Shown here: positions 6,075 through 22,236 of the stretch, one piece after another
Numbering within the stretch: position 1 is the first letter of the stretch
Layout of the letters: every line of letters begins with the position of its first letter
Assembly: GCF_029589435.1 (NCBI RefSeq)
Contig: NZ_JARRAG010000005.1
Location: forward strand, 1-64,000
Direction: 5' to 3'
From: Paludisphaera mucosa
Lineage (GTDB): Bacteria; Planctomycetota; Planctomycetia; Isosphaerales; Isosphaeraceae
Length of the DNA stretch: 64,000 bases
Notes under the pieces: model-generated
Seen by the model: the letters and a program-made list of their open reading frames with translations, nothing else
The model's database searches: none
Told to the model about the DNA's origin: nothing
Position numbers and translations under genes: made by a program

Positions 6075-6539
6075 TCCGTCAAACCGTCGAAGCCCGCGCG
6101 ACCCGAGGGGCGCGCGGAGCGGCCCGGGGGCCGAGGGAGGTTCGACTCGAAGCCCGCGCCGAAACGGGCGGCGCGTCCGCCGTACCGGCTCGCCGGCGCA
6201 GCGAATCACGGCACATCCCCGCCGCCGCCCGGTATGCGAGCGTGATGGAGCAGGAACTCGGAGGGCGGCCGCGGTACGGCGTCGTCGCGATTCGAGTCCG
6301 AGGCGCCGGCGGTCGTCCGGCGGATTCGCGAGCATGAGATGGGGCTCGACGACGGGCTTCCCGCCAGGCGATCCGTCTGGAAACGTCGGCCTGCGATCGG
6401 CGGGGGAACCGTCGGCGAACCGGCGCATGATCGGCTTCTCGACGCCCGTGCAAACGCCCGAGAAATCAAGAATCTCGTCGCGGCGGAGGGACCGCCGGGG
6501 CGGCAGAACGAGGCCGAAACCCTCCTGCTGGTGGGAACC
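6056..6539. other. 484-bp stretch without a supported gene
   Basis: Several short frames are open but none has a recognisable product or start. It may contain eroded sequence belonging to the two pseudogenes on either side. Confidence 0.4.
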
Positions 6540-7098
6540 CCAAGAAGACTCCGCGAACCGAGAGCGACCGACTCGTCTTCGGCCCGTACCGAGCCCCCCG
6601 ATGCCGCGTCGGGAAGGCGCTGGAGTGCGAGGCCCGAGGACGCACCGTCGTCGTCGCCGGGATGAGCGACGCCCCCATTCAATGGCCCTACGCGAAAAAG
6701 CGAGGCAACCGCTCGCTCATCCTCTGCGGCGACCTGGTGAAGGCCGTCGGCTTGGAATCGAAGACGGCGATCGCCCACCATTGGGGCGTCTCCGTCACGA
6801 CGGTCAGGCTCTGGCGTCCTGCTCTGGGGTGCCCGCCCAGACCGTCGGCTCCTTCAGGCTCAGGCGGCACTACATCACCATCGGAAGGGAAATCTCCCGC
6901 TCGCCGGAATCCCGGGCCAAGATGAGCGCCGCCCACGCCCATCGACAGCCGTGCCCCCAGTTCCACGCCGCGGCTTTGGAGGCGGCCAAACGGCCGAAGT
7001 CCGAAGCCTGGAAGAAAGCCCTGTCGGAGCGGATGAAACGGGAATGGGCCGAGGGGACTCGCCGCAACCCATTCGGCAGGAGCGGCGATGCCGAGTAA
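6540..7098 (+). pseudogene. frameshifted helix-turn-helix protein
   Basis: Remnant of a small DNA-binding protein. One frame reads RLVFGPYRAPRCRVGKALEC, then MSDAPIQWPYAKKRGNRSLI and the HTH-like VGLESKTAIAHHWGVSVTTVRLW. At about 6826 (CTGGGGTG) one base appears missing and the protein continues in another frame as GVPAQTVGSFRLRRHYITIG to the end at 7098 (EWAEGTRRNPFGRSGDAE). The upstream part lacks an in-frame ATG or GTG after the stop near 6426, so the 5' end is also damaged. I recall a planctomycete family with this layout (GPYRxP, WP, WGVxxxTVxxWRxALG, repeated KARDPERR-like basic helices), but that is from memory. An ATG at 6662 gives the shorter intact part. Confidence 0.55.
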
Positions 7099-7116
7099 TC
7101 ACATGGCTTCGGAGGC

Positions 7117-7140
7117 GGCCGATTCGCAGCGGAATCGGCC
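7117..7140. other. perfect 9-bp hairpin
   Basis: GGCCGATTC (7117-7125) pairs with GAATCGGCC (7132-7140) around a 6-base loop. It lies between the HTH remnant and the start of the 92-aa gene at 7153, overlapping that gene's leader, so it could end the upstream transcript or affect translation. No T-run follows. Confidence 0.5.
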
Positions 7141-7152
7141 AAGGGGTGAGAC

Positions 7153-7431
7153 ATGGCGAAACCGCATCCGGGGAACGGTTCGGGCAGGTTCGGGGTCGGC
7201 GTCCACGACATGGGGGGATGGGTCCAGGTGAAGGCCGACGGCCGTCCGGCCGGCCCGGATGAGCTGGCCGTGTATCTCTCGCACCGGCTCGCGGAGCGGT
7301 TCCGCGAGAACGCCCAGCTTCGACTCCTGTGCGTCGTGCCGGTCAGCAAAGACGGGACGACGGTCGAGCTCCACGCCTGGTACGAGCAACACGTCTTCCC
7401 GGATAAGAGCCCCCTGGCTCGCGGGCAATGA
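7153..7431 (+). CDS. small hypothetical protein, 92 aa
   Basis: Unrecognised by formal family; it resembles small planctomycete proteins with an HDMGG(W/Y)V start and an ELHAW motif (from memory). Visible: GVHDMGGWVQVKADGRPAGP, LAVYLSHRLAERFRENAQLR, and VPVSKDGTTVELHAWYEQHV. The alternation of short strands and one helix suggests a compact alpha/beta fold. The start at 7153 follows AAGGGGTGAGAC. It sits downstream of the HTH remnant and upstream of a toxin-antitoxin pair in the same direction, inside the accessory region. Confidence 0.6.
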   Translation: MAKPHPGNGSGRFGVGVHDMGGWVQVKADGRPAGPDELAVYLSHRLAERFRENAQLRLLCVVPVSKDGTTVELHAWYEQHVFPDKSPLARGQ

Positions 7432-7550
7432 GAGCTTAGGAATCCGCCTCCTCCTGATGAACATTCCTCCTGACCAGGTTTTTCGTTTATTGCGATTATA
7501 GCTCGCGTGTGCTAGCCTGGAGGGAGTCGAGAAAGAACGGAGGGGATGAT

Positions 7551-8003
7551 ATGCAGCTGCTCAACGGCAACGAGGTGATAACGCCGAGCAAAGCCGACGC
7601 GGCACTCGCCGAGGAATCGGGGCGAAAGCTCGCGGCCCATCTGGACCGCGACGCCGAGCTTCGCTTGGAAGTGAAGGGGACGAAGGAGGAGTTGAAGCTC
7701 CCCGCGACCGCGTTGCGGCTCCTCGTGCGTGTCCTGGCCGAGCTGGGGCGGGGGAACGCCATCACGCTCACCCCGCTCCGCGCCGAGCTGACGACGCAGC
7801 AGGCGGCCGACCTCCTGAACGTCTCCCGACCGCACCTGGTGAAGCTCCTCGACGAGGGGGCGATGCCGTCCACGAAGGTCGGCAGCCACCGGCGGGTCCT
7901 GCTCACGAACCTCATGGCCTATCGGGAGGAGTGGCACGCGAAGCGGCATGCCACCCTGGACGAACTCGCGGCGTTGAGCCAAGACCTCGAGATGGGCTAC
8001 TGA
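7551..8003 (+). CDS. HTH antitoxin of a PIN-domain toxin-antitoxin pair
   Basis: Antitoxin-like DNA-binding protein of 150 aa. The C-terminal half carries an excisionase-type (MerR-like HTH_17) domain: LTTQQAADLLNVSRPHLVKL followed by the wing LLDEGAMPSTKVGSHRRVLL. The N-terminal half is acidic and lysine-rich. I chose ATG 7551 over GTG 7509 because GGAGGGGATGAT sits directly in front. The PIN toxin gene begins 4 bases after its stop. The leader (about 7480-7550) is locally AT-rich (TTTTTCGTTTATTGCGATTATAG) and probably holds the promoter. Autoregulation by the HTH domain is expected from family knowledge. Confidence 0.8.
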   Translation: MQLLNGNEVITPSKADAALAEESGRKLAAHLDRDAELRLEVKGTKEELKLPATALRLLVRVLAELGRGNAITLTPLRAELTTQQAADLLNVSRPHLVKLLDEGAMPSTKVGSHRRVLLTNLMAYREEWHAKRHATLDELAALSQDLEMGY

Positions 8004-8007
8004 CATC

Positions 8008-8574
8008 GTGGCCCCGAGAGTCCTTTACGACGCCTGCGTGCTCTATCCGGCACCGCTCCGCGACCTCCTCATGCGTCTCGCCCTTGCGAATCTGTTTCAG
8101 GCTCGCTGGACGGACGAAATCCATGACGAGTGGACGCGTAACGTGGCGGCAAACCGCCCCGACGTCTCGCCCGAGAGCCTGGCTCGCTGCCGCAGGCTGA
8201 TGAACGAGCACGTCCCGGACAGCCTGGTGACGGGCTACGAGTCGCTCATCCAGAGTCTCAGCCTTCCCGACCCGGACGACAGGCATGTGCTCGCGGCGGC
8301 GATTCACGGAGGTGCCGGGCTCATCGTGACGTTCAACCTGAGCGACTTCCCGGCCTCGGCCCTCGGCGGCTATTCCATCGAGGCGATTCACCCCGACGAG
8401 TTCCTCGCGAACCTCTGGGGCGAGTTCCCGGAGGCGGTGCTCGATGCGGTGAGCCGCCAGCGTGCCGGCCTGAAGAACCCGCCGAGGTCGGCGGGCGAGC
8501 TGCTGGCCACGCTCGAACAGTGCGGCCTCGCCGAGACGGTCGCTCGGCTGCGTGCCCACGCGGAAGAGATTTGA
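8008..8574 (+). CDS. PIN-domain ribonuclease toxin
   Basis: PIN-domain protein of 188 aa, expected to cleave RNA when released from its antitoxin. It opens with the typical strand and first acidic residue (RVLYDACVLYPAPLRDLLMR). Later acidic positions lie in LPDPDDRHVLAAAIHGGAGL and in VTFNLSDFPASAL, giving the four-acid PIN layout. The C-terminus is a helical extension (LLATLEQCGLAETVARLRAH). It starts with GTG four bases downstream of the antitoxin stop. The pair resembles HTH/PIN modules common on mobile DNA. All key residues appear present, so it is probably functional. Confidence 0.82.
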   Translation: MAPRVLYDACVLYPAPLRDLLMRLALANLFQARWTDEIHDEWTRNVAANRPDVSPESLARCRRLMNEHVPDSLVTGYESLIQSLSLPDPDDRHVLAAAIHGGAGLIVTFNLSDFPASALGGYSIEAIHPDEFLANLWGEFPEAVLDAVSRQRAGLKNPPRSAGELLATLEQCGLAETVARLRAHAEEI

Positions 8575-8588
8575 CGAACGGGCGAATC

Positions 8589-8628
8589 GTGCAGCAGCTT
8601 GCTGCACGAATTCGCTCGAAGCGAGTTC
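8589..8628. terminator. two adjacent hairpins between convergent genes
   Basis: GTGCAGCA/TGCTGCAC (8589-8607, 3-base loop) is perfect. GAATTCGCT/AGCGAGTTC (8608-8628, 3-base loop) has one mismatch. They lie between the PIN toxin (ending 8574) and the convergent helicase remnant (ending 8687), so a bidirectional terminator is likely, though there is no T-run. Confidence 0.5.
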
Positions 8629-8686
8629 CAGCCCTCGAGACGCGAGGACGGGCGACGTCCGGGCGGAATCCTCGCCGCCGGGGCGT

Positions 8687-11277
8687 TTAGAACAGCCGTT
8701 TCTGCTTCAAGCGACCCCGGTCCCGCACCTCGAGCATGGCGGGTAGCGGAACGGGAAGGGGTGGGGACGTCACCGTGCCCGCGAGGACGACCGCCATCGG
8801 GGTCGGCTCGGTCGTCCCTCCCGAAGCGACGGGCTCGACCCGAGCCTCCGCCTCGTCCTCCGTCCCTCCCGGGACGACCACGCCCCGCCCCCGGATGCGG
8901 GCGGTGACGGGGCGTTCGCCGGTGGACGTCCTCACGCCCCGCGACGGCGGCGGGGTCGCGTCGAGGGATTGCGAATCCTTGAGGGCCTGCACCCGCTCGG
9001 CGAGTTCCCCGGCCGACGGCAGCGGCTCTGCATTCGGGTCGGGCGGGGTCCCCGCGAGGGCGACCTTGAGGAGGTCTCGGAGCCCGGCCAATTCGGCGAA
9101 ATAGGCGTTGTGCCGGAACGGCCTGCCGAGCCGGTCTTGATAGTCGCGTCGTTGTCCCTCCGCGAGGGCCAACTCGCTTTGGGCCGAGGCCCTCTGGCCG
9201 TCGGTGCCGGACGCGAGGCGTTCCACGGCGTTCATCACGGCCCGCGGCCCGTGGGAGTCGCGGGAGAGGGAGGTATGCCGCACGGCGGCCCCTTCGAGGT
9301 AGACCTCGGGGCCGGACTCCGGGTGGACCACGAAGCCGAATTGCAATCCGCGGTAGACGCCGAGCGGGAAGCGGCGGGTCCGGGGGACGAGCTCGGGCGT
9401 CGAGTCGAGGCGACGCCCGAGCACGGCCTGGACTTCGTCGCGGCGGCACTCGCGGCCGTCGACGGTCACGGGGTCGTCAGCGTGCCTCGCCAGCGTGGCG
9501 AGGTCGGCCGTGAGGTCGGCGAGCCGCTTCGCATGCCGGGCGACGGCCTCGGGCAAGTCGCGGAGATTGCGGCGGGCCAGTAACTGCTCGTCGGCGTGGT
9601 GCTTCCGCAAGGTCGAGAGCCGCTGCAATTCGGCGTCCGCCTCGGCGAGCGTCAAGACGGCGGGATCCCCCGAGGCGATGGCCTTCACCTCGGCGTACGA
9701 CGACTCCTGCCCGCCGACGTCCTCGGCCCGCCGTGTGCCCGACTCGCCCGTGACGACCTGGGCGATGAACCGGGCCTTGGTCTCCAGGGCCTGCCACATG
9801 TAGGCGTCGAACGAGCCCTCGGTCACGTACCGGAAGATTTGCACCTCCTCGTTCAGGTTGCCCTGCCGGAGAATCCGGACCTCCCGCTGCTCGACCTCGG
9901 CGGGCTTCCACGGGGCGTCTAGGTGGTGCAACGCGACGAGCCTCCGCTGGACGTTGGCGCCGGTCCCCATCTTCTGCGTGCTGCCTATCAGGACCCGCAC
10001 CGAGCCGTTCCTGACCTTCCCGAAGAGGACCTGGGTCTTGGCGTCGGCGTCGCCGACGGCGGCCATCTGCTCACGCGGGACGCCGCAGGCCGCGAGCTTG
10101 GCGACGAGGTCGCCGTAGGCGGAATATCCCCACGGAGTCGGGTGGACCCCCATGTCGCAGAAGACGAGCTGCGTCCCCCGATTGTGTGCGGAGGCCCGCC
10201 AAATCGACTCGATGTTGGCGACCGCCGCGTTCACCTTCGAGGCCGGGAAATCCGGGGCCCGACTCGCGATGAGGCGGGCCTCCAAGGCGAGCTTCCGGCC
10301 GTCGGTCGTGATGGCCAGGGCGTTGTCCTCGCGGGGGTCGACCTTCTGCGAGCGGATCCGCTCGTAGCGGGCCACGAGGTGCTGCTGGATGCCCCGCTGC
10401 TCGTCGGACATCGGGCAGGCGACGATTTCGGCCTTGCCCCCCGCGAGCTGGGGGCGGGGGAGGTCGAGCCTCTCGGCCGTCTGCACGTCCGAGAACGCCC
10501 GGAACATCTGCTGGAGTTCCGGCAGGTTGATGAACCGGGCGAACCGGCTGCGGGGCCTCAGGCTCGCCCCGTCCGGGGATATCTCCATCACGTCGACGAC
10601 CTCGCCGAACGTCGCGGCCCAGGCGTCGAAGTGCTCGATGCCCCGGCGTGAGAGCCCCTCGGGGTCGAGGAACCGCTGCATCGTGTACATCTCGACCATC
10701 GTGTTGCTGATGGGCGTGCCGGTGGCGAAGACGAGCCCGTGCCCGGGATGATTCTCGTGGAGGTATCGACCCTTCATGAAGAGGTCGAACGCCCGCTCGC
10801 TGCCGCCCGTCTGGATGCCCGCGACCCTCTCCATCTTGGTGGGGGTTTCGAGGTTCTTGAAGTAGTGGGCCTCGTCCACGAACAGGTTGTCGACGCCGAG
10901 CTCGTCGAAGACGAGCCCGTCGTCCTTCTTCCCCTCGGCGAGGAGTTCCTTGAGGCGGGCCTCGCGTCGGGCCTTCTGCTTCTCGACGGCCTTCGTCAAA
11001 TTCCGGTTCCCTCGCGAGGCGTCGCCGCGGTCCGAGTCGCGAAGGAGCTGGTCGTACTCGGCGATTTGCTCGCGGAGGAACCGGGCCTGGTAACCCGTGA
11101 CATCCCGATGCGTTCGAACGAGCTGTGGGTGACGATGACGCCATCCCACTCCCCGCTGGCCATCTTCGCGGTGAGCACCTTCCTCCGCTCGCGGGCGAGG
11201 TCGTCCTTCGCGGCGATGAGCAGCCGTGCGTTGGGGTAGAGCTGCATGAACTCGCGGGCGAACTGCTCCTTTGACGG
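8687..11277 (-). pseudogene. DEAH-box SNF2-like helicase, 5'-truncated and frameshifted
   Basis: Remnant of a large plasmid/ICE-type helicase of the kind linked to N12-class DNA methylase proteins. Sequence begins abruptly at 11277, right after the nuclease stop codon, in the middle of the helicase domain (EQFAREFMQLYPNARLLIAA). The upstream motifs, including Walker A, are absent. At about 11097 the frame shifts between ...THSSFERIGM and DVTGYQARFLREQIAEYDQL. The rest is open for about 800 codons: DEAH box (LFVDEAHYFKN), motif III (FATGTPISNTMVEMY), motif V (STQKMGTGANVQRR) and motif VI, which reads QREVRILRQGN where QR(D/E)GR is usual. A Pro-rich tail follows. Lack of N-terminal motifs, the frameshift and the altered motif VI indicate a non-functional gene. 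Confidence 0.8.
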
Positions 11278-12663
11278 TCAGCCGAAGTTCTTGAGAACGT
11301 CGTCGGCCGTGAGGATGCCGCTGATGCTGAAGAGTCGCTGCAAGCCGTCCGAACCCAGGGAGACCTGCAAGGGGTTGCGTAGTCTCGCGTCGACCATGGC
11401 CACCAATGCGGCAGCCTCCAAGAGGCAGACCTCGTTCGTGTCCGTCTCCATCTTGATGGAGCGGATGAGGTCGTCGTAGTCGTCCTTGAACCCGCTCGAA
11501 ACGACGGCGTAGTAGATGTTCCGTAGGGTCTTCTTCCGCTTCAACTCGCGGCTCTGGGTCATGACGTACTCGCGGATGGCCCGGTCGTCGGTGCCCATGC
11601 TGTAGCCGTCTTCGCGGACCTTCGCATCCCAGAGGATGGCGTACGAGTTGTCGTGCTCCAACGCGAGCCCGTCCGGGACGCGACCGCTACCCTGGCCGAG
11701 GAGCTTCGTGTCGAAGCCCAGGACGGTGAACGCGGCATGGATGCTCTTCTCGAAAGCCCTCGGCAAACTGGTCCCAGAAGCTTTGGCCACGGCCTCCAAG
11801 CCGGGCTCGTTCCGAGCCATACTCGTGAGAATGGCTACGACCGGCGGGACGTAACTTTCGGGCAACCGGGAGGACGCCGCGGCGTCCTGCACGGTCGGTG
11901 GAATCGGCGGCGTTGGCGTCGGCCTTTCTCCGTCGCGGAGCGGCTTCGAGTCGCCGTAGGGGTTTCCGCCCTTGAACCAGAAGACGTGCTCGACCCCGTA
12001 CAGGTCGAAGGGACGGCCCGAGGCCTGCGTAAACAGGGCGGCCAGCTCCTCCTGGATGTGCTTGTAGGCGAGGTAGTCCTCAGCCAACTCGTCGCTCGGC
12101 TGCCAAAGGTTCAGGTCGACCATCGTGTTGACGCTGTTCGTGTAGAAGACGGGCCATGTGGCACGGTCTTGGACCTGCCAGAAGTAGGACAGGAAGAAAG
12201 GGATGCTGCCGGGGTTCGGCCGCCCTTGCTTCGTCCCCCCGCTTTCGACGAACTCGTGCCCGATTCGCTTGACGTAGCTGTGGAACGTCTTGATGCGGCT
12301 TCGGGCAATCTCCTCGCCGGTGGGCAGGGCGATGGCGGCCTTGAGCTCCTGGTCGCACTCGGCCTCGTCGTCGGCCACGTTGACGACCATGTTGAAGAAC
12401 ATCTGGCCCTTGATGCCCTTGAAGCCCCAGAACTCGTTGCGTTTGTTGATGCCGTCTATCTTGGATTTGAACTCGGCCAGAGGGGTTCCCCCGGTGAGAT
12501 AGCTCGCGACGAGGGGCTTGAGTTCGGCGTCAATCAGACGGGCCCGTTTCAGGTCGCGACCGCCCTGAGTCTCGAGGGGCGTTCGTCCGTCGGGGTTTCT
12601 TGGAGCGGAGAGGTACTCTCGCATGACCTCGACGGCTCGGTTGCTCTGTTCCGGCGTCAACAT
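11278..12663 (-). CDS. nuclease with FokI-type cleavage domain
   Basis: 461-aa putative restriction endonuclease. Residues about 300-455 resemble the FokI cleavage domain: E305 in a helix (PRAFEKSIHAAF), P330-D331-G, then D346-A-K348 (YAILWDAKVREDGYSMG), matching the FokI order D450, D467, K469, and a strand VVSSGFKDDY like FokI 'VSGHFKGNY'. The N-terminal half (about 1-235) is a separate domain with FFLSYFWQVQDRATWPVFYT and LYGVEHVFWFKGG, which I associate with N-termini of McrB-like defence proteins (from memory), probably target recognition. A Pro/Thr linker joins them (about 245-262). It lies 110 bp downstream of the ATPase gene, same strand. No methyltransferase is adjacent. It ends exactly at the helicase stump. 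Confidence 0.75.
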   Translation of the reverse strand: MLTPEQSNRAVEVMREYLSAPRNPDGRTPLETQGGRDLKRARLIDAELKPLVASYLTGGTPLAEFKSKIDGINKRNEFWGFKGIKGQMFFNMVVNVADDEAECDQELKAAIALPTGEEIARSRIKTFHSYVKRIGHEFVESGGTKQGRPNPGSIPFFLSYFWQVQDRATWPVFYTNSVNTMVDLNLWQPSDELAEDYLAYKHIQEELAALFTQASGRPFDLYGVEHVFWFKGGNPYGDSKPLRDGERPTPTPPIPPTVQDAAASSRLPESYVPPVVAILTSMARNEPGLEAVAKASGTSLPRAFEKSIHAAFTVLGFDTKLLGQGSGRVPDGLALEHDNSYAILWDAKVREDGYSMGTDDRAIREYVMTQSRELKRKKTLRNIYYAVVSSGFKDDYDDLIRSIKMETDTNEVCLLEAAALVAMVDARLRNPLQVSLGSDGLQRLFSISGILTADDVLKNFG

Positions 12664-12773
12664 GGCTAGATTGCCTTGTTAGCGTTTGGAGGCTCTCCAG
12701 GGAGGCGACTTGGGCTTCCTGCTCGGCGATGAGCATACCCCCCTTCGATGAAAGGCCAGAAGAGTTCTGGTCT

Positions 12774-15452
12774 TTAGAGAGGTACGACGTCAAATGCTCG
12801 AGGCTTGTTTTGCTTGCCCGGCCCGATGTCGAATTCCACCATCGTGCCAACGGCGAGTGACTGGAGGTCGCCTATCAGGTTAGTAATATGGACAAATAAA
12901 AGTTCCGTTGCTTGGCCATCCTGTTCGATGAACCCGAAGGCTCTTTCGGCGTCCCACGACACGACCCGGCCGAACGGGCGGCCGTAACGAGAAGACGTGA
13001 CTTGGCTCATCGGCTTCGAGAGCTTGGCCAATTGTTCTTCAAGCCGCGTCTGCACCGTGCCTTGAGAAGCGTATCGAGGATGGTCGGGAAGCCGCGTGTA
13101 TTTGGCGTCCTCGGTCAGGAGATAGGAGACGAAAGCCTTCAGGGCTCGTCGTCGTGCGTAAGGCAGTTCCACTTTGATGAAGTCGCCGATTTCCCGATGC
13201 ACCTCCTCGCTGAGAAGCGGAGTTACCTCCATCATCGCCTCGATGTAGATCCAATCGCCCAGGGCCCATGACAAGTGTTGACGGCCCGAAGGAGCTATCT
13301 CCAGCTTAGACGTCTTCTCAATCTTGGAAATCGTCGGGTCGTATCCGAGCACAAATCCGATTCTGAGCATGGCGGCCAGCAACTGCGTGACGGCTCGTTC
13401 GTCGAATCCCATGTCGAGGAAGAATTTCTTGATAGCTTCAAGCTCAACATATCTCGAGTCAGAACCGCTCAACTGAGAGCACGTATCCTCCAAGAACTTG
13501 AGGATTCGAAGCGCGAGCAGTGGCGAAGTATCGAGCTGGGATTCAAGGGCGAAGACGTTATGCACGAACTCGTTCACAGCTGACGATGGGTAGATGTCGT
13601 ACTTGCCTCGGATGATGGCCGATTTGACGTTGTCCGGGTGCACTTCCATCGACGTATGAGTTATCGAAGCTGAAAGTAGTTCCTTAACCTTAATGTGCGA
13701 TGACGTGATAATCCAGCGAGTCAATTCCAGGCAGCGGCGGATGTCCTGGTTCGCGAGGTTCCCTATCCATTTGGCGACCTCGCCGGTGTTGATGAAAACC
13801 GTCTGGACGCTGCTGGTGAACATCTCGAGGTTCTCGACCTCGAGCCTGTGCTTGTTCCAGAGATAGCCTGTCCCCTTGGTCGCCTTCTTCTCGGTCTGCG
13901 TTATCTCGCCGATATAGTCAACTCGCTTCTTTAAGACGACATCCGGCGACGGCGTGGGCAGGAAGAACGACTCGTAGAAGAACGAGTGAATTGCCCCTTG
14001 TCGTGTGAGCTGCCAGCTAGTTTTATCCGTGATAGGCACCAGCACGAGGCAAAGAATGTTCTCGTATATGGAGCGAGCGTACTGGAACACGCGGTCTTGG
14101 AAGTCGATGTCGAAGTGGTCCGTGTTGTCGAAGATGAGGCAGGGGGCTTTGCGGTCAGAATGGACAATCCGGTGGAGCAAGTTCTCGAGATACTCGTGGG
14201 GACGCTGTTCGCGGCGATTGTTTATGTGTTCGCCAAACTTGTCCCTGAACTGGTTATAATCCCGGGTGTAGAGGCCCTCGAACGGCCCGTCCCGCCACCG
14301 TTCATACTCCTCGTTATAGATTCCACGAAGCTGGTCGTACGTAGGGTGTTTATCGCCGAACACCGCCCGTTCGGTCTCAACGAGTAGGTGTTGGTCCAGC
14401 CACGCCACGACCGTCTTTTCTTCACCTTCACTCTTTGAAAGGTCGACCTTGATAATCCTACAGTCGTCCCGGATTTTGCTCGGCAGTATGTCTTTAAAGA
14501 ACCTCTCGATGAACGTCGACTTACCGGCTCCCTTTGTGCCAACCAAGACGATGAACTCGCGACCCCCTCCCTTAACCCGTTCGACGGTCTTCGTTATCGC
14601 GTGAGTCTCGGCCCTCGAGTCGCTCGTCTTGATGGTCTGAACCTTGTTCCGCAACTCGGTCGAGATGCGAGCAATGCTCTCTTCCGCGTGGATGCTTTCG
14701 TCGGTCGTGACGAAGCATCGCCGCCTCATCTCGGCATCATCCTCGCCTTTCAGGTCGCGGAAGAAGAGCATCATAATCTTATCAATATCGTCGTAGAGCT
14801 TGTCGTACTCCGGGGTCGTCCGCGAATCAGGTTTCCGTATGGGCGAGCGGAAATTCGAGGGGCAGAGGGGCTGGTTTCCCGCCGCTTGGAATTCAGCTTT
14901 GTATCGAAGACCCCTCACGGCTTCATAGGAAAGAAGGTCATAGAATAGGGTGAAGCGAGTTCGGACGCTTTCCAGGCTGCCGAACACGCATGCCTGGCCT
15001 TCTTCCACGTCTCGGCCCTCGCTACCTCTTCCCCGGAATACAACCCATTGCCGGCCATTCGTTACACAGGCCAGTTCGGCACTCCGAAAGCCACAGTAGA
15101 GAATCGCCTGATTCAATCCCTCCTGGAAATCGGGGCTGCTGAAGACTGAGCCATTGAGTTTGAAGTATCGCCCTGCGTGGTCAGCTTTTATACCGAGGTC
15201 TCGCTCATCCCGTTTTGCCTCGATGACCAAGCGATTGAGGCCATCCGTCTTGCATAAATAATCAATAAACTTCTTGCCTGCATCGCTCTCAAGAAAAATG
15301 GCTTCACGCGGCCACCCGAGCACCTCGATGAAGACGCGGTCAATGAGTTTGAGGCGGACATCCGCTTCGGTAACGAGGGTGTCGACGTATCGCGGAAGCT
15401 CGTCGTCGACGATTGTTTGGAATTTCTCAAATGCGACGTCGATAGGCTCCAT
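12774..15452 (-). CDS. HsdR_N-like nuclease / P-loop ATPase / cold-shock-domain fusion
   Basis: 892-aa protein of unusual make-up. Residues about 30-150 look like the type I restriction HsdR N-terminal nuclease fold: D64 in KFIDYLCKTDG, then E78-A-K80 in RLVIEAKRDE. Residues about 255-600 are a P-loop NTPase: Walker A VGTKGAGKST (305-313), Walker B APCLIFDNTD (D442, D445), with STAND/KAP-like spacing. A helical, probably winged-helix, region follows (about 600-800). Residues 828-892 are a cold-shock domain with RNP-like strands AFGFIE and LLFVHI, normally an ssDNA/RNA-binding OB fold. The DNA is visibly less GC-rich than neighbours, a sign of transfer. It lies between the tyrosine recombinase and the FokI-like nuclease gene, all on one strand. 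Function in defence is inferred; I know no described system with this exact fusion. Confidence 0.72.
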   Translation of the reverse strand: MEPIDVAFEKFQTIVDDELPRYVDTLVTEADVRLKLIDRVFIEVLGWPREAIFLESDAGKKFIDYLCKTDGLNRLVIEAKRDERDLGIKADHAGRYFKLNGSVFSSPDFQEGLNQAILYCGFRSAELACVTNGRQWVVFRGRGSEGRDVEEGQACVFGSLESVRTRFTLFYDLLSYEAVRGLRYKAEFQAAGNQPLCPSNFRSPIRKPDSRTTPEYDKLYDDIDKIMMLFFRDLKGEDDAEMRRRCFVTTDESIHAEESIARISTELRNKVQTIKTSDSRAETHAITKTVERVKGGGREFIVLVGTKGAGKSTFIERFFKDILPSKIRDDCRIIKVDLSKSEGEEKTVVAWLDQHLLVETERAVFGDKHPTYDQLRGIYNEEYERWRDGPFEGLYTRDYNQFRDKFGEHINNRREQRPHEYLENLLHRIVHSDRKAPCLIFDNTDHFDIDFQDRVFQYARSIYENILCLVLVPITDKTSWQLTRQGAIHSFFYESFFLPTPSPDVVLKKRVDYIGEITQTEKKATKGTGYLWNKHRLEVENLEMFTSSVQTVFINTGEVAKWIGNLANQDIRRCLELTRWIITSSHIKVKELLSASITHTSMEVHPDNVKSAIIRGKYDIYPSSAVNEFVHNVFALESQLDTSPLLALRILKFLEDTCSQLSGSDSRYVELEAIKKFFLDMGFDERAVTQLLAAMLRIGFVLGYDPTISKIEKTSKLEIAPSGRQHLSWALGDWIYIEAMMEVTPLLSEEVHREIGDFIKVELPYARRRALKAFVSYLLTEDAKYTRLPDHPRYASQGTVQTRLEEQLAKLSKPMSQVTSSRYGRPFGRVVSWDAERAFGFIEQDGQATELLFVHITNLIGDLQSLAVGTMVEFDIGPGKQNKPRAFDVVPL

Positions 15453-16084
15453 GAAAGCCTCGCTTGGGTAGGACGTGTGTTAAATCGCGATTCGCTCGAC
15501 CTCGTCGAGCGTGATTTCGTCATCGGTCCGGTTGTAAAGCTCGGTCGTCTTCGTGCTCGCATGTCCGGCCATCTTCTGGGCCTTCTCGACCGTGCCGCCC
15601 CCGGCGATGTAAGCGGTGATGCCGGTCGCTCGGAACGAGTGGTTGCAGAGCTTGTGCGTGAGCCCCGCCGCGAGGGCCCTTCGCTTCACCATGTCCCAAG
15701 CGTTCTTCCTGCCGAGCGGCTTGACGGCGAGTCTCCCGGTCTTCCCCTTGGACGTGCGGAATAGCGGCCCGCTCCTGTCGCCCTCGATGCCCGCCGCCTG
15801 GATGTAGGCGTCGAGGTACTCCTCGGCCTTGTGGTGAACCGGCACTTCGAGGAACCGGCCGCCCTTCTCGTGGAGCCGCACCCGCCACTTCTTGCCGTTC
15901 GCGTAGTAATCGTCGACGGTCGTTCCCAGCACGGCACTGATGCGGCCGAACGAGAAGGTCATCAGAGCGATGAGGGCCCGGTCCCTGAGGTCGAGCAGCG
16001 TCGAGCCTTTGATGGAGTCGAGGAGCTTCCTTGCGTCGTCGGCCGCGAGGTAGGGGGTCTTTCCCCGCGTGACGACGTGCTTCG

Positions 16085-16112
16085 GGCCCCGGACGAATGG
16101 CACTTAGATTTT
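16085..16112. repeat. left target duplication and left terminal repeat of the IS4 element
   Basis: Target copy GGCCCCGGAC (16085-16094) followed directly by the 18-bp end GAATGGCACTTAGATTTT (16095-16112). Confidence 0.9.
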
Positions 16113-17631
16113 CACAAACGGTTCCCCCGCCGCAGGATAGGAAGCCACGGGCATTCTGGCTCTGATGAGGGCGTACAACCCTCACCGGCTCGGAGCCAGA
16201 TTGATGTTCAACTACGCGCAGGGACGTCTTCGGCATCAGATCGACCTCCTCCGCCAACAGTTCGTCCAGGAAGGCGGACTCCCCTTCGCCGACGTCCTAT
16301 CCGCCAGCGGCCTCGAGGAGGCCCTCCGTGAGATCGAGGCGACCTGGAATGACCGCATCTACGCCCCGTTGGTAACCCTCTGGGTGTTCATCGGACAGGT
16401 GCTCAACGCCGACCAGTCCTGCCGCGCCGCCGTCGCGCGGCTGATCGCCCACCGGGTCTCACAGGGGCTCGAGCCGTGCAGCTCCGAGACGGGGGCGTAT
16501 TGCCAGGCGCGGAAGCGCCTGCCCGAGCGGTTCTTCGCCGCCGTGGCCCGCCTCGTGGGGCGGAACCTGGACGCGCGAGTCGACCCGCAGTGGCTTTGGA
16601 AGGGCCGCCGCGTCTGCCTGTTCGACGGCTCGACGGTCTCCATGCCCGACACCCCGGAGAACCGCCGGGAATACCCTCTGGCCTACAACCAAGTGCCCGG
16701 GACGAGCTTCGCCCCCGCCCGGATCGGGGCGATCATCTCGCTGTCCTGCGGCGCGATCCTCGACCTGGGCGTCTGCCGCTACGCCGGCAAGGGCCAGGGC
16801 GAGGTCAGCCTGCTGCGCCAGCTGTGGGACGTGCTCCGCCCCGGCGACGTGCTGCTGGGCGACCGCCTGATGTCGGGCTGGGTCGGAATGTACCTGCTCA
16901 AGCAACGCGGGGTCGACACCGTCAGCCGCCTGTCGGCGCACCGCCGGGCCGACTTCCGCAAGGGGACCCGCCTGGGCAAGGACGATCACGTGGTCGTGTG
17001 GAAGAAGCCGTCGTCGATCCGCTCGGTGGACCGGGCGACGTACAACGCGCTGCCCGAGGCGATCACCGTCCGCGAGGTTCGCTTCCGCGTAGTGCAGCCC
17101 GGGTTCCGGACGCGGTCGGTCGTCGTCGTGACGACCATCCTGGACCCCGGGCTGGCGAGTGCGGAGGAGCTGGCTTCGCTCTACCGGGCCAGGTGGAACA
17201 ACGAGTTGGATTTGCGTTCGATCAAAATCACCTTGCAGATGGATGTTTTGCGGTGCAAGACGCCGGAGCTGGTGCGCAAGGAGATCTGGGCCCACGTCCT
17301 GGCGTACAACCTGATCCGCACGGTGATGGCACAGGCGGCGACCATCGAAAATGTGGAACCTCGCTCGATCAGCTTCAAAGCGACGCTCCAGGTTCTCGAA
17401 GCGTTCCGGCCGCTGATCGCCTACCGGGCGCACAGCGGTGCGGACGACCAAGAGGAACTCTACGAGCAACTGCTCGGGGCCATCGCCGTGCATCGCGTGG
17501 CCGACCGGCCCGACCGGTTCGAGCCCCGCATGACCAGGAAGGGGCCGAGAGGGTATGAGGAATTGAAGCGGCCGCGAAGGGAGATCAAACTCCATATGCT
17601 CAAACGAGCTAGCAAAATCTAAGTGCCATTC
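16095..17631 (+). mobile_element. IS4-family insertion sequence, 1,537 bp, apparently intact
   Basis: Bounded by 18-bp perfect inverted repeats: GAATGGCACTTAGATTTT at 16095-16112 and its complement at 17614-17631. The 10-bp target GGCCCCGGAC is duplicated at 16085-16094 and 17632-17641. It carries one transposase gene. Ends, target duplication and open transposase all match, so the insertion looks recent. Confidence 0.93.
16165..17622 (+). CDS. IS4-family transposase
   Basis: 485-aa DDE transposase that cuts and pastes the element. Catalytic positions are visible: D154 in CLFDGSTVSMP, D233 in VLLGDRLMSGW, and E347 within the YREK signature (Y340, R343, E347, K354 in LYRARWNNELDLRSIK), which is diagnostic for the IS4 family. 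It spans almost the whole element, starting 70 bp inside the left end and stopping 9 bp before the right end. Start at 16165 (ATG); an internal ATG at 16204 is an alternative. Length matches the family, and no lesion was seen. Confidence 0.94.
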   Translation: MRAYNPHRLGARLMFNYAQGRLRHQIDLLRQQFVQEGGLPFADVLSASGLEEALREIEATWNDRIYAPLVTLWVFIGQVLNADQSCRAAVARLIAHRVSQGLEPCSSETGAYCQARKRLPERFFAAVARLVGRNLDARVDPQWLWKGRRVCLFDGSTVSMPDTPENRREYPLAYNQVPGTSFAPARIGAIISLSCGAILDLGVCRYAGKGQGEVSLLRQLWDVLRPGDVLLGDRLMSGWVGMYLLKQRGVDTVSRLSAHRRADFRKGTRLGKDDHVVVWKKPSSIRSVDRATYNALPEAITVREVRFRVVQPGFRTRSVVVVTTILDPGLASAEELASLYRARWNNELDLRSIKITLQMDVLRCKTPELVRKEIWAHVLAYNLIRTVMAQAATIENVEPRSISFKATLQVLEAFRPLIAYRAHSGADDQEELYEQLLGAIAVHRVADRPDRFEPRMTRKGPRGYEELKRPRREIKLHMLKRASKI

Positions 17632-17641
17632 GGCCCCGGAC
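17614..17641. repeat. right terminal repeat and right target duplication of the IS4 element
   Basis: AAAATCTAAGTGCCATTC (17614-17631) is the exact complement of the left end, followed by the second GGCCCCGGAC copy (17632-17641). Confidence 0.9.
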
Positions 17642-17978
17642 CGATGCGGCCGGGTTCGTTGGAATCACCTGGCCGGTCACCATCCAGTCGAGGAGCATCT
17701 TGATGGCGGCCAGGTGCTGCTTCACGGTCGGGGCCTCACGCAGCTCGGAGAGCTGCTCGATGTAGGCCGCGACGGCGACGGGCTCGATGGTCTGGAGCGT
17801 GAGGCGTCGCTCTTCGCACCAGCGGAGGAACTGGGCGGTCGCGTGGGCGTAGGCGGCCCGCGTGTTCTTGTTCCTGATTTGGGCGGTGAAGAACTCGACG
17901 AAGCGTCTCCCGGCCCGGTCGCCCTCCTGGGCGATGAGGGCGGGGAGGACTATCCTGCGGTTGTCGGCTCGGGCGAGG

Positions 17979-18245
17979 TCACACATCATCGTCGGCCTCG
18001 GCTGCACTCCCTTCGAAGTCCGCGACCGGCGTGAGCTGGAAGCGGTTCGTGATGAGGTGCGTGAGGCTCATCGCGAGGAACTGCTCGTAGCTCGCCCCCA
18101 ACTCCTTCGCCTCGGCCGTGAGCCGCTCTCGAGACTCGGGCTCCAGGGCGATGACCAGGAACTCGCTAATCAAGTCGGCCAACTCATGCGTCGGGTCGCC
18201 CATCGGGACGGGCTCGGGGGCTTCATCGTCGTCGGGGTGGTCCAT
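17979..18245 (-). CDS. small protein ahead of the recombinase, 88 aa
   Basis: Acidic N-terminus (MDHPDDDEAPEPVPMGDP) followed by a helical core (ELADLISEFLVIALEPESRE, then AKELGASYEQFLAMSLTHLI) and an acidic end. No family recognised; size and position suggest a regulator or recombination accessory protein. ATG 18245 has AAAGGACGAGC in front; the frame is open further upstream but without a better start. Its last 11 bases overlap the recombinase start, so the two are translationally coupled. A 20-bp palindrome lies 86-105 bp upstream of its start and may be its operator or the recombinase's core site. Confidence 0.6.
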   Translation of the reverse strand: MDHPDDDEAPEPVPMGDPTHELADLISEFLVIALEPESRERLTAEAKELGASYEQFLAMSLTHLITNRFQLTPVADFEGSAAEADDDV

Positions 18246-18330
18246 GCTCGTCCTTTGGCGTTCGACTGCATGCACTCTATGGTTCGGTTCCGACCCGGCA
18301 TGCACGCATGTTTTAGCACAGGGTTCACAG

Positions 18331-18350
18331 GACATAAAGGGCGTTATGTC
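18331..18350. other. palindromic dif-like site A
   Basis: GACATAAAGGGCGTTATGTC: two 7-bp arms GACATAA/TTATGTC around a 6-bp asymmetric core AGGGCG. An identical copy in inverted orientation lies at 34741-34760, and similarity continues beyond the arm (AATCNGACT). The layout resembles Xer/dif-type tyrosine recombinase cores. It sits just upstream of the recombinase operon. An operator role is the alternative. Confidence 0.6.
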
Positions 18351-18522
18351 TTGCAATCAGACTGGGGTAAGGGGGCGTCGCTCCCGCCGGCCGACTGACT
18401 GCACTTAGCGCTCGACGGCGTCCGGACGCTCGAATTCCGGTCGTCCTCCCGAAAAGAATGGAACCGCGGGCGGGCCTCGTGGGCATGAGAGGGCGTCACG
18501 ACGAGATTCCTGGAGGCGGGAC

Positions 18523-19998
18523 ATGGCCGGCGGGGGAAGGGCATCGATCGAAGGGGCCGTGCGGACGTTGTGGACGACCGGCGCGACGGCGGGGGTCGAC
18601 GACGGCGCCTTGCTGTCCCGGTTCGCGGCCGGACGCGGCGAGGCGGCGGAGGAGGCGTTCCGCATCCTCGTGGAGAGGCACGGCCCGATGGTCCTCGACG
18701 TCTGCCGGCGGGCCGTCGGCGACCGTCAGCACGCGGAGGACGCCGCCCAGGCGGTCTTCCTGACGCTCGCCCGCAAGGCGGCGTCGGTCCGGGTGGACGG
18801 CACGCTCGCCCCGTGGCTCCACGGCACGGCCCGACGCGTCGCGGCCAGGGCCCGCTCGCGGTCGGCGGCCAGGCGTTCGGCCGAGGCGCGGGCGATCGCC
18901 GGGTCCGCGTCGCGGAGGCCCGCCGCGGCCGAGGAGGCGCCGCCGGCCGGCGACTGGGAGGCCGTGCACGACGAGGTCGACCGGCTGGCGGAGAAGTATC
19001 GGGCGCCGGTCGTCCTCTGCTGCCTGCAGGGGCGGACGTACGAGGAGGCGGCGGCGCGGATCGGCTGCCCGGTGGGGACGGTCCGCGTGCGGCTCTCCCG
19101 CGCCCGCGACCGCCTCCGCGACCGACTGGCCCGCCGCGGGTTCGGCCCGGAGCGGCTCGCCGCCGTCGGCTGGCTCGCACCCCATGCGGATCTATTGCTG
19201 GCGAGGGCCGCCGCCCCCCTCGTCGAGGCGTCGCCGGCCTGGGCGGCGGCGACGGCCGGCGCGGCCCTCGCGCTGGCCGAGGGGAGGGCGGGGTCGGGGT
19301 TGGTCTCGGCGACCGCGTTCGAACTTTACAAGGGTATGGCGAGGACTATGACGATGCAGGGATTCCAGATCGCGGCGGCCTGGACGCTTGCCGCCGGGAT
19401 GACGACGGTGGGCGCGATCGCATTCTCCGCGACGGGCCTCGGGCCGGGGGGGCCGCCCGACCGCCCGGCCCGACAGGACGCCCCGCCGGCCGAGGTCCCG
19501 ACGAAGGCCCCGGAGAAGCCGGCCGACCCGCTCACGGAGGCGCCCGAGGCGCTGGAGCGGCGGATCGACGACGTGCGGGGGCGGATCCTCGCCGCGGCCA
19601 GGGCGCGGCTGGATGCCCAGCGCAATTACTACAACCAGGGCCGCATCACGATCGATCGTTTCCTCGACGCGTCCCAGAACCTCATGGTCGCCGAGACGGC
19701 CGTCGCCGAGGACGACTCCGCACGGGTCGCGGCCGCCCAGGGACATCTCGACCGGATCGTCGAGATCATGGGCCGGGAGGAGGCCCGATTGAAGTCGGGC
19801 CGGGGCACGGCCGCCGACGTGACCGAGGCCCGGGCGTCCCTGGAGAACGCGACCTTGCTCTACCTCGACGCCGTGCGGACGGCCCGCCGGCTCCGCGAGG
19901 CCGACGACCTCCGCCGCCGCGTCGAGGCGCTGGAGAAGCGACTGGACGAGCCCCTCTTGAAGCCCGACCGCCCGACGTCGGGGCCGCCGTCGCCGTGA
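18523..19998 (+). CDS. ECF sigma factor with membrane-anchored C-terminal extension
   Basis: 491-aa ECF-type sigma-70 factor. Region 2 lies at about 28-90 (ALLSRFAAGRGEAAEEAFRI, AEDAAQAVFLTLARKA). Region 4 lies at about 155-205 (EKYRAPVVLCCLQGRTYEEA, IGCPVGTVRVRLSRARDRL). An Ala-rich stretch and one likely transmembrane helix follow (about 283-310, IAAAWTLAAGMTTVGAIAFS). A Pro-rich linker and a long coiled-coil (about 345-480) come after it. ECF factors with long C-terminal tails are typical of planctomycetes; here the tail should place the coiled coil outside the cytoplasm, so the protein may sense envelope signals directly. No anti-sigma gene is next to it. Its start lies 172 bp downstream of palindromic site A. 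Confidence 0.85.
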   Translation: MAGGGRASIEGAVRTLWTTGATAGVDDGALLSRFAAGRGEAAEEAFRILVERHGPMVLDVCRRAVGDRQHAEDAAQAVFLTLARKAASVRVDGTLAPWLHGTARRVAARARSRSAARRSAEARAIAGSASRRPAAAEEAPPAGDWEAVHDEVDRLAEKYRAPVVLCCLQGRTYEEAAARIGCPVGTVRVRLSRARDRLRDRLARRGFGPERLAAVGWLAPHADLLLARAAAPLVEASPAWAAATAGAALALAEGRAGSGLVSATAFELYKGMARTMTMQGFQIAAAWTLAAGMTTVGAIAFSATGLGPGGPPDRPARQDAPPAEVPTKAPEKPADPLTEAPEALERRIDDVRGRILAAARARLDAQRNYYNQGRITIDRFLDASQNLMVAETAVAEDDSARVAAAQGHLDRIVEIMGREEARLKSGRGTAADVTEARASLENATLLYLDAVRTARRLREADDLRRRVEALEKRLDEPLLKPDRPTSGPPSP

Positions 19999-20129
19999 CC
20001 GTCCGCGTCCCCCGGGCGGCCTCTGTATCGCGTTCCTCGTCCTCTGACCTTCGCAAACCCTCCGAACCAAGATCGGCGTCGGCCTGAGACGTCCGCGGCC
20101 TGAAGGCCATGCGAGGCCACCGTAGTCGT

Positions 20130-20158
20130 GGGTCCGATAAGCCGCCTTTATGTTCGCT
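20130..20158. other. dif-like site B (variant)
   Basis: GGGTCCGATAA (20130-20140), a 6- or 7-base spacer (GCCGCC/T), then TTATGTTCG. The left arm matches sites D and E (GGGTCTGATAA) apart from one base. It lies in the spacer between the ECF sigma gene and the convergent phosphatase gene. Confidence 0.4.
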
Positions 20159-20241
20159 TCGATGTCTTGAAGCCGAAGCGAGTTTTGTGCAGGGCGTCGA
20201 CTTCGTCCTGCACGGGAGTCCGGGATGGCCTTTATGTCGAC

Positions 20242-21207
20242 TCAGTTGTCCCGGTGACTCGCGTGGCACGATTTGCAACTTTTCCCCGCCGCGGCGAAAG
20301 AAGCTTCGAGCCCCCTGAGAGAGTCGGGCGAGCGTTGTCGGCCGTGCTTCGACATCGACTCGTAGAGGCCGTTCGCGAGATTCTCGGCCGATGCCATCTG
20401 CTTGAGGAACTCCTCGCCCTTGGCTTTCGACTCGGGGAGGCGAGACGACTCGCGATACAGCTCCAGCAGTTGCAAGGCCTCGGCCGTCGGGTCGACGTTC
20501 GGACGGTCGACGGGCGGCTTGAACCCCGCCTTCTGGATGGCCTTGAGGGCGTCCCATCGCTGGTCGACCTTGACCATCATCTCGACCAGGGCGGGGACTT
20601 CCGAACGCTCGGGCGGTTCGTCGGCCCCGGCAGCCTGCAACTCCTCCGTCGTGGGCGGGACGAAATCCCGGACCGAGGCGTGTAGGCCGCGATAATCGGC
20701 CGAGGTCCCCGCGACCTTCAGCCAGTCGGCCGCACGCTCCTTGCTCCACCCTTCCGACGCCATGCCGCAGACGGCCGCCGACGCCGGGCCGCGATGGATG
20801 CCGTGATGGCAATGCACGTAGACCGGGCCGGGCAGGACCTTCAACGCCTTGACCATCCGCACCGCCTGGACTCGGGGCACGCCGTCGTACCCGATGGGGA
20901 GGTGGACGTAACGCATGCCGAGTCCCTTCGCGGTCTCAACGTCCGGCGTGACGCCGTCGACGCTGATGATGGTCTTGATGCCCAGATTCTTGAGGGCCGT
21001 CAGGGCCGCGACGCCGTGCGGGTCGCCGCCGCTGAAGAGGTTCGGGCTCAAGCGGAAGGCGTTCTCGACGCCCCGGATTTCAAGCCGCTCAGGTCGTCCT
21101 CCCGGCGTCGGCTCCTGGCCATGAGCCGAGAAGAGGATGAGGATGCCGCCGAGGAGCGGCGTGAACACCCGGAGGATGACCTCGAGGGCGTGCGTTTTCG
21201 GATTCAT
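20242..21207 (-). CDS. exported protein phosphatase fused to a cytochrome c-type heme domain
   Basis: 321 aa. An N-terminal hydrophobic segment (about 9-28) looks like a signal peptide or anchor. Residues about 45-160 are a dual-specificity/tyrosine phosphatase fold with the CX5R loop HCHHGIHRG (C133, R139). The C-terminal part is helical and ends with C311-K-S-C314-H315 followed by ASHR, the heme-binding CxxCH placed near the C-terminus as in four-helix cytochromes c'. If correct, a periplasmic phosphatase is joined to a c-type cytochrome. The gene lies next to the metal cluster on the same strand. Phosphatase motif and CxxCH are seen directly; the cytochrome c' fold is inference. Confidence 0.78.
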   Translation of the reverse strand: MNPKTHALEVILRVFTPLLGGILILFSAHGQEPTPGGRPERLEIRGVENAFRLSPNLFSGGDPHGVAALTALKNLGIKTIISVDGVTPDVETAKGLGMRYVHLPIGYDGVPRVQAVRMVKALKVLPGPVYVHCHHGIHRGPASAAVCGMASEGWSKERAADWLKVAGTSADYRGLHASVRDFVPPTTEELQAAGADEPPERSEVPALVEMMVKVDQRWDALKAIQKAGFKPPVDRPNVDPTAEALQLLELYRESSRLPESKAKGEEFLKQMASAENLANGLYESMSKHGRQRSPDSLRGLEASFAAAGKSCKSCHASHRDN

Positions 21208-21240
21208 CGCCCCGTCGCTCCCGTCGGGTGAGGACTCGGC

Positions 21241-22236
21241 TCAGTAGCTGTCGGAGCTGACGACCTCGCCGCCCGCCCTCGTCCCCAGGGCACGCCAGGT
21301 CGCCATCGCGATGCTGCCCTTCGTGAACCGGACCGAGCCGTCGAGCATCAACGTGTTGACCCCGCCGGGGTGATAGCTCCGAGACGTGACCACCAAGTAG
21401 GTCTGCAACGTGTCCGACGTCCCCAATCGGGCGGACGTGAAGTCGATGTCGTACTGCCGGCCGCCGTTGACGTACGGGATGACGGTGTTGGGCGAGAAGC
21501 CCGAGCTGAAGCCCGAGTGGAGGATGTGGCCGCTGACCCACTCGGTGTGGCTCCATTGGGCGTCGAACGTCCCGGGGTAGACCCCCAGCTCGTTCGGAGA
21601 GACCGGCGGCGGAACGCCGACGCCCGTCGGCTGGCCGCCGTCGTGCAAGGCGGGCTGGTACGCCTTGACCTCGGAGAAGGAGATGGTGTTCGAGAGGCCG
21701 TCGGTGACGCCCGCCAGGCGGATGTTCGCGTTGATGCCGTAAGCCCCGTCCCCGAATTGCCGCGTGGTCGGGTCCCATACCAGCCACGTCCCGGTGCAGA
21801 TTCCGTAGTTGAGCGGGTAGTTGGTGAAAGTCGGCGTGACCTTGGGCTGGTCGCGGATTTCGCTCGGGCACAGGAGCATGGAGACCCGGGTCTGGGCGAT
21901 GGTCACCTGGATGTTGAAGGGGATGTCGTAGTTCAGGCTGTTGTGGAGCGTCGACTGCTCGACGAACGGCAAGAGTCGGGCCTGGACGGAGTAGGACGGC
22001 ATTGGCGCCAGCTGGCCGGGCTTGAAGCAGCCGGCCGGGGGCAGCATGGAGTGGGCGGACTCGTAGTTGTGAACGGCGAGGCCGAGCTGCTTGAGGTTGT
22101 TGGTGCACTGGATGCGACGGGCCGCTTCGCGGGCCGCCTGCACGGCGGGGAGCAGGAGGGCGATGAGCACCGCGATGATGGCGATGACCACCAGCAGCTC
22201 AATCAGGGTGAATCCACGGCGGTCGATTGGGCCCAT
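21241..22236 (-). CDS. DUF1559 pseudopilin-like protein
   Basis: 331 aa. It starts with a type IV pilin/pseudopilin prepilin motif ([20 protein letters not shown]: cleavage after G, E at +5) and a hydrophobic helix. The DUF1559 hallmark follows ([20 protein letters not shown]), and the C-terminal signature [16 protein letters not shown] is intact. Members are exported, abundant in planctomycetes and of unknown exact role, probably surface or periplasmic. Four related genes lie on this strand between 21 and 30 kb. Confidence 0.92.

Follow-up and report, generated by a model that had tools for sequence, protein, structure and literature searches.

A nuclease-ATPase protein with a cold-shock tail in Paludisphaera mucosa: a candidate stand-alone defence nuclease borne on mobile elements

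Domain organization of the protein

The 64,000-nucleotide stretch of Paludisphaera mucosa DNA analysed here (contig NZ_JARRAG010000005.1, positions 1 to 64,000; hereafter the window) encodes, in a single open reading frame (ORF), an 892-residue protein that combines an HsdR_N-like nuclease domain, a P-loop ATPase region and a C-terminal cold-shock domain (CSD) (Table 1). With evenly divided confidence, we consider it a defence nuclease that acts alone against mobile DNA and is itself borne on mobile elements, its CSD tail contacting single strands. An AlphaFold run on the protein with 58 family sequences gave a model with a mean predicted local distance difference test score (pLDDT) of 84.3 and a predicted template modelling score (pTM) of 0.62. 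From the secondary structure of this model we infer a winged-helix identity for the helical region at about residues 640-760; a match to archaeal Cdc6 (PDB 1fnn) extends to residue 805, but with a root-mean-square deviation (RMSD) of 10.1 Å. The PADLOC 2023 library returned only weak, partial matches to the 892-residue protein. A chance match or a frame join was ruled out as the source of the CSD fusion by the E-values and by the relatives L037 (53% identity) and L038 (48% identity); the fusion is not a chance join, because both carry the same nuclease-ATPase-CSD architecture.

Table 1. Coordinates of the protein, its parts, its neighbours and one distant relative (window positions unless a locus is named)
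Feature	Coordinates	Strand	Basis or remark
Nuclease + ATPase + cold-shock protein ORF	12774..15452	-	ATG start, 892 aa; profile matches and fold
N-terminal nuclease domain, residues 1-192	14877..15452	-	invariant motif residues, HsdR fold, HSDR_N matches
ATPase region, about residues 217-630	13563..14804	-	AAA_22/AAA_16, invariance, ORC/TnsC/RdrA fold
Helical region, winged-helix look, about residues 640-760	13173..13535	-	secondary structure of model
Linker before CSD, residues 806-824	12981..13037	-	low confidence, pLDDT<50 at 816-823
Cold-shock domain, residues 828-891	12780..12971	-	Pfam CSD, CspA fold
FokI-type cleavage domain gene, 461 aa	11278..12663	-	PF09254 3.7e-6; PADLOC type II restriction endonuclease 6.5e-5
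SNF2/DrmD-like helicase ORF	8687-11149	-	recognised chiefly by C-terminal helicase parts; may be truncated
HTH_17 and PIN-domain proteins, adjacent	7509-8574	+	toxin-antitoxin-like pair
Tyrosine recombinase, catalytic part	15480..16103	-	Phage_integrase 4.6e-19; upstream neighbour, same strand
Transposase-like ORF between recombinase pieces	16165-17622	+	
Tyrosine recombinase, N-terminal part	17609-18007	-	beyond transposase-like ORF
Distant relative L036	L036:7176-9857		HSDR_N 40.3 bits; S1 in place of CSD

The C-terminal tail is a genuine cold-shock OB fold, as an earlier note on this DNA had claimed from the strands AFGFIE (residues 838-843) and LLFVHI (residues 851-856). The Pfam CSD profile (PF00313) matches residues 828-891 with 42.1 bits (E 7.9e-11; gathering cut-off 27) and the tail scanned in isolation with 47.6 bits (E 1.5e-12), and the top PDB sequence matches of the entire protein are cold-shock proteins (3a0j, 3.3e-5). 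In the model the tail forms the five strands of the fold (residues 827-834, 839-844, 851-855, 871-878 and 884-891). Structural comparison with CspA (PDB 1mjc), the check that the note had suggested, gave a Z score of 13.7 and an RMSD of 1.2 Å over 68 residues with 35% identity; the tail also resembles the RNA-bound BsCspB (PDB 3pf4, Z 12.2) and the CSD of YB-1 with RNA (PDB 6kug, Z 11.9).

Alignment with the Thermus cold-shock protein 3a0j revealed that RNP1 (AFGFIE) is retained, that RNP2 (LLFVHI) keeps its phenylalanine and histidine, and that the CspB contact places W8, F9 and F30 are occupied by serine, tryptophan and isoleucine, respectively. Since RNP1 and the two RNP2 residues are kept in a real CSD, the tail likely binds single-stranded nucleic acid. 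The loss of the W8 and F30 places, together with a poor RNP2 in the leading CSD of many relatives that have two, would fit a degenerate remnant devoid of nucleic-acid binding that serves, for instance, in dimerisation or stability. We regard this as very improbable in view of the intact RNP1, the kept phenylalanine and histidine of RNP2 and a match above the Pfam cut-off.

Capture of the CSD from a cold-shock protein of the host was considered but is not supported. A family search found no other CSD in the 8.2-Mb genome (100% complete), the tail as query retrieved one other match there, at E 0.36, and no CSD was found in the five congeners searched; across the phylum, 83 of 119 genomes have one. 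Tail and core agree in guanine-plus-cytosine (GC) content (0.545 in the CSD part, 0.544 in the core), which makes it probable that the fused gene was acquired in one piece.

The two domains of the core had been described in the earlier note as HsdR_N-like and P-loop ATPase, respectively. The former description is upheld by the fold and by the relatives, although the protein's own profile score falls below the Pfam cut-off: HSDR_N reached E 0.18 with the whole protein, and E 0.0078 and 16.5 bits (cut-off 25.1) with the isolated domain. The profile was found at E ≤0.01 in 26 of the 57 N-termini scanned, this protein included (best 1.1e-8), and the relatives L078 (25.3 bits) and L133 (31.1 bits) exceed the cut-off. 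Modelled alone (pLDDT 92.8), the domain resembles an HsdR structure (PDB 3h1t), with a Z score of 11.2 and an RMSD of 4.4 Å over 123 residues, followed by BpuSI (Z 10.4), DrdV (Z 10.2) and EcoR124I HsdR (Z 8.1); Foldseek by itself also ranked 3h1t best, at an E-value of only 0.0027. The motif D...ExK...QxxxY is present as D64, E78, K80, Q115 and Y119, in which QxxxY is presumably part of the PD-(D/E)XK signature of HsdR_N. E29, D64, E78-x-K80 and Q115-xxx-Y119 are invariant throughout the 58 rows of family alignment A3 (composition given below).

The ATPase was recognized by the Pfam families AAA_22 (residues 297-465, 9e-9) and AAA_16 (residues 281-454, 4.5e-8). It has a Walker A motif GTKGAGKST (residues 305-313), a Walker B region holding D442-N-x-D445, and arginines at 510 and 572; G305, G308, G310, K311, T313, D442, N443, D445, R510 and R572 are likewise invariant in A3. 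Structural similarity search retrieved ORC (PDB 7jgr; Z 13.8, 3.7 Å over 254 residues), TnsC (PDB 7mcs; Z 12.9, 4.5 Å over 298 residues), RdrA (PDB 8hr8; Z 12.6, 4.3 Å over 262 residues) and CED-4 (PDB 3lqq; Z 12.1, 3.5 Å over 228 residues). As these scores lie close together, they place the region in a broad ATPase class and name no family; the lack of a fold in the structure searches was never counted as evidence. The invariance of the catalytic residues in 58 of 58 sequences argues for a nuclease and an ATPase that are both active throughout the family.

A conserved core with variable tails

One pattern-based scan, covering 84,980 species genomes, yielded 60 loci. Six loci lie on viral contigs, and 28 plasmid records match, of which 11 do so over 80% or more of the query. 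Members belong to Planctomycetota, Omnitrophota, Thermodesulfobacteriota, Bacteroidota, Cyanobacteriota, Chlorobiota, Acidobacteriota and Pseudomonadota. Among 294 genomes of the phylum besides its own, five matches (E ≤1e-8) extend over the ATPase core, at 21-24% identity, and nearly all the remaining matches comprise the CSD only. Sequences whose match ends before residue 780 or starts after residue 75 were omitted from the 65-row alignment (L002, L004, L036, L074, L083, L086, L090, L091, L093, L094 and L102), and L005 and L006 were not recovered by BLAST; A3 additionally omits L003, L031-L035 and L098. Of the 65 rows, 64 have E29 and 64 have D64, the exception in each case being a gap; T313 is likewise found in 64. 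The reading frames of L004, L094 and L102 are divided in two, so some family copies look broken.

A quick tree of 64 rows (L098 left out) was built from the alignment without the tail; it has no bootstrap values and leaves 14 of 60 inner branches open. Its rows comprise three proteins with one CSD, 23 with a tail of two-CSD length, 37 with none and one that is cut off. The one-CSD proteins, namely this protein and its two nearest relatives L037 and L038, form one clade with a Shimodaira-Hasegawa-like approximate likelihood ratio test (SH-aLRT) support of 100. The tail labels require four changes on the tree, compared to a mean of 21.7 upon shuffling, and none of 200 shuffles was as low. The strongly supported branches alone force at least three changes for the label "none" and at least two for "two", and therefore tails have been gained or lost more than once.

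The tails themselves are diverse. A CSD was found at E ≤0.01 in all 25 long tails scanned, out of 28 tails of at least 50 residues; the other three are L079 (contig end), L084 (identical to L034) and L098 (identical to L097). Two CSDs, as assigned by tail length and alignment A4, occur in many proteobacterial relatives, and two separate Pfam stretches were found in L031, L078 and L133. In a prophage homolog from Escherichia coli (L143:7720-10650) the CSD scores only 19.2 bits, below the cut-off, and in L036, a distant relative on a Desulfocapsa plasmid, the CSD is replaced by an S1 domain (24.8 bits; cut-off 22). Distant relatives on plasmids of Paracoccus, Sinorhizobium, Pantoea, Shewanella and Kosakonia have no CSD at E ≤0.01. 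As for the CSD-less tails, 16 of the 23 that span 12-49 residues have a net positive charge within the highest 5% among the sequence windows of the same protein; 15 of these 16 basic tails fall in one clade, and hence reflect few independent events. The other 14 of the 37 CSD-less tails are shorter than 12 residues and lie outside the charge test.

The presence of the same core in 37 CSD-less rows means that the core can do without the tail, which cannot be the general sensor of the family, so that the sensing role proposed in the earlier note is not supported in its general form. Judged from these comparisons, the tail is an exchangeable module for nucleic-acid binding rather than a universal sensor. 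In the lineage of the window protein, it may serve to sense, to raise affinity or to tether.

That the core stays constant while the tails vary (none, one CSD, two CSDs, S1 or basic) also suits a different defence nuclease, one that senses, for example, a phage protein or a DNA structure via its ATPase and helical core, the CSD being merely an affinity helper or tether. Folds of the ORC/STAND kind sense by their own C-terminal parts. Nevertheless, CSD and S1 are both single-strand OB folds, and the repeated change of the CSD state suggests that the ligand matters; we therefore rate core sensing as rather unlikely, if the most serious of the alternatives.

Escherichia coli homologs and genomic context

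Homologs were found in 12 of 5426 E. coli genomes with a gamma-proteobacterial member as query, and likewise in 12 with the E. coli gene as query. Seven of these genomes have a diverged copy with a partial match, and five a whole-length match. In all four diverged copies viewed, the gene is the sole annotated one between the portal and replication endonuclease genes of a P2-like prophage; the prophage homolog has 976 residues and is 29% identical to the window protein over 863 columns. The gpA-gpQ interval of P2-like prophages is a diversity hotspot that holds many anti-phage systems, including old and tin (PMC9122126); the main text of that paper makes no mention of cold shock. This position in an anti-phage hotspot is the strongest evidence for function, and it supports, for the family, the infection context assumed in the earlier note.

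All three whole-length copies viewed, among them L133:14923-17838, are cargo of an element at guaA that also encodes an integrase, a RepA-like helicase, RepC, TrbL and TrbJ. The backbone of this element occurs in 66 genomes. The seven other copies viewed hold different contents, and six of them carry a relaxase gene that the three elements with the homolog lack. Their cargo includes a type II restriction-modification (R-M) system with an Abi protein, an ATP-dependent nuclease, a P-loop NTPase, a TIR protein and an AAA ATPase; of these seven, one holds tet(A) and another only PIN, CoiA and hypothetical genes. As a separate observation, the guaA element with its exchangeable cargo (L133, L134, L135 and L136-L142) is possibly an unlisted defence hotspot.

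The 28 plasmid records, the guaA element and the recombinase genes found alongside could alternatively mark a gene for the maintenance, competition or entry control of mobile elements instead of anti-phage defence. The gpQ-gpA slot of P2 is, however, known for anti-phage genes (PMC9122126), and the sporadic presence on chromosomes across many phyla, with no conserved replication or transfer partner, also speaks against this role, which we consider improbable.

In P. mucosa the gene is itself an immigrant. It was found in none of the 29 other relatives searched, none of the five congeners has it, and its GC content of 0.544, compared to 0.689 for the window, is lower than that of any of the 307 window stretches of the same length sampled. 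Judged by this distribution and composition, the gene arrived horizontally.

The surroundings indicate a one-gene system. None of the ORFs at window positions 5001-22000 has a homolog (E ≤1e-8) beside the relatives compared, the downstream sequence available covering only about 1.3 kb for L037 and 4.2 kb for L038. The widest cluster of neighbour families around the relatives spans eight loci at varied distance and orientation, and with no neighbour family in a fixed position, a system of a single gene is indicated. A two-gene system with the FokI-type gene, which lies 110 nt downstream of the ATPase-CSD gene and is single-copy in the genome, was set aside for want of support beside the relatives. 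The neighbours of the relatives include a type I R-M system at L039 and the PADLOC candidate PDC-M48B beside L037. PADLOC matches among these neighbours comprise mads, IetA and ThsB, with none among the examined neighbours of L038, L040 and L041.

Proposed action and relation to known systems

The analysis directly establishes the domain make-up, the preservation of the catalytic and ATP-binding residues, the absence of any conserved partner gene, the modularity of the tail, the mobility and the hotspot position in E. coli. We infer the order of events, the single-stranded DNA (ssDNA) or RNA ligand, the switching by assembly and the DNA substrate of the following scheme. The conserved core would be an HsdR_N-type DNase that an ORC/STAND-like ATPase switch keeps in check. 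Joined to it by a flexible linker, the CSD tail would hold exposed single strands, namely the RNA of an element or its ssDNA upon entry or replication; this contact would put the ATPase on the target, after which ATP-driven assembly would allow the nuclease to cut DNA, whether the invader's or the cell's own. The tail would thus be a replaceable reader, present as one CSD here and as two CSDs, an S1 domain, a basic segment or nothing in the relatives. More tentatively still, the proteins could form a family of single-gene bacterial immune receptors, in which the exchange of tails adjusts the range of single-stranded phage or plasmid intermediates that set off DNA cutting.

Several observations weigh against a defence nuclease that acts in this way. 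The W8 and F30 places of CspB are changed in the tail, and CSD-less proteins make up 37 of the 64 tree rows. A search of 50,697 phage genomes gave no match to the window protein or to the E. coli homolog, and activity of any family member was not found in the literature surveyed. The paper on the P2 hotspot also names a partitioning system and a toxin in it (PMC9122126), and drug-resistance genes in one guaA island mean that this slot is not reserved for defence. At least one mads match ("mad2") among the neighbours is an ordinary type I methylase, that of L039. PADLOC families numbered 95 over 150 neighbour ORFs, compared to 46 over a control of 126 ORFs, taken from 20 stretches that lie some 25 kb away from recA in relative-bearing genomes; the difference is modest, and the test yields no per-protein counts, draws on redundant models and carries little weight. 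Its neighbour set comprises 150 of the 220 ORFs picked, with ORFs shorter than 120 residues and the end of the list dropped, and excludes the loci L045, L046 and L098 and those numbered under L037.

Compared to type I HsdR, the window protein has a common nuclease fold and catalytic pattern, and RefSeq indeed labels the guaA-island relatives from E. coli "type I restriction endonuclease". However, it has AAA_22/AAA_16 in place of an SF2 helicase family (none at E ≤1) and ends in a CSD tail, and no HsdM or HsdS was recognized among the six neighbour ORFs scanned; L039 and the plasmid locus L031 do adjoin type I R-M genes.

The ATPase fold resembles the ORC/Cdc6-STAND ATPases of conflict systems (TnsC, RdrA and the CED-4/Avs kind), and the coupling of a nuclease to an ATPase of the ORC/CDC6 clade in mobile neighbourhoods is a theme already described (PMC10853773). 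The window protein differs in its single chain with an HsdR_N N-terminus, its OB-fold tail, and the lack of HerA/FtsK and of any repeat family found. The STAND profiles stayed below threshold (nSTAND_NTPase5, E 0.061 and 13.6 bits versus 34; NB-ARC, E 0.18), and no TPR family appeared at E ≤1 in the whole-protein scan, in which region 640-805 was not scanned separately. For RADAR, the fold match to RdrA (Z 12.6) has no counterpart among the PADLOC matches, the presence of an RdrA model in that library being unchecked. Similarity to the Sll1717 P-loop ATPase family (NF047389) is weak (E 0.0015), with 17.7 bits against a cut-off of 75, which leaves the protein outside that family.

OB folds of the CSD or S1 type on nuclease systems have been described in CoCoNuT (PMC11090510) and in the nuclease-based TALON and TOTE conflict systems (PMC12458937, PMC7159879), where they are proposed readers of RNA or ssDNA. 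Two of the 25 family tails match the S1CSD model of TOTE (best 1.2e-4). Unlike those systems, which involve McrB-type GTPases, coiled coils, TPR and TBP partners, the window family is a single protein with another ATPase and nuclease; no McrB-like GTPase domain was detected at E ≤1 in Pfam or PADLOC.

OB folds in conflict nucleases and nucleases coupled to ORC/CDC6 ATPases are thus known, whereas their combination and the exchange of tails were not found published. The titles and abstract openings retrieved and the accessible parts of PMC11090510, PMC12458937, PMC7159879, PMC9519451, PMC13092281, PMC10853773 and PMC9122126, which do not extend to the supplementary system lists (PMC9122126 Table S5B, PMC13092281) where such a protein may appear, contain no description of a protein with HsdR_N, an ORC-like ATPase and a CSD. 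Given the public names of its members ("type I restriction endonuclease", "AAA family ATPase" and "hypothetical protein"), the family is probably hidden from defence surveys. It bears on the question of how stand-alone defence nucleases distinguish foreign from own DNA, as the occurrence of one core both with OB-fold tails and lacking them amounts to a natural experiment, and the E. coli homologs in a published anti-phage slot are testable in the laboratory.

Upstream of the gene, the outer ends of the insert that splits the tyrosine recombinase (window 15480-18007) resemble inverted repeats.

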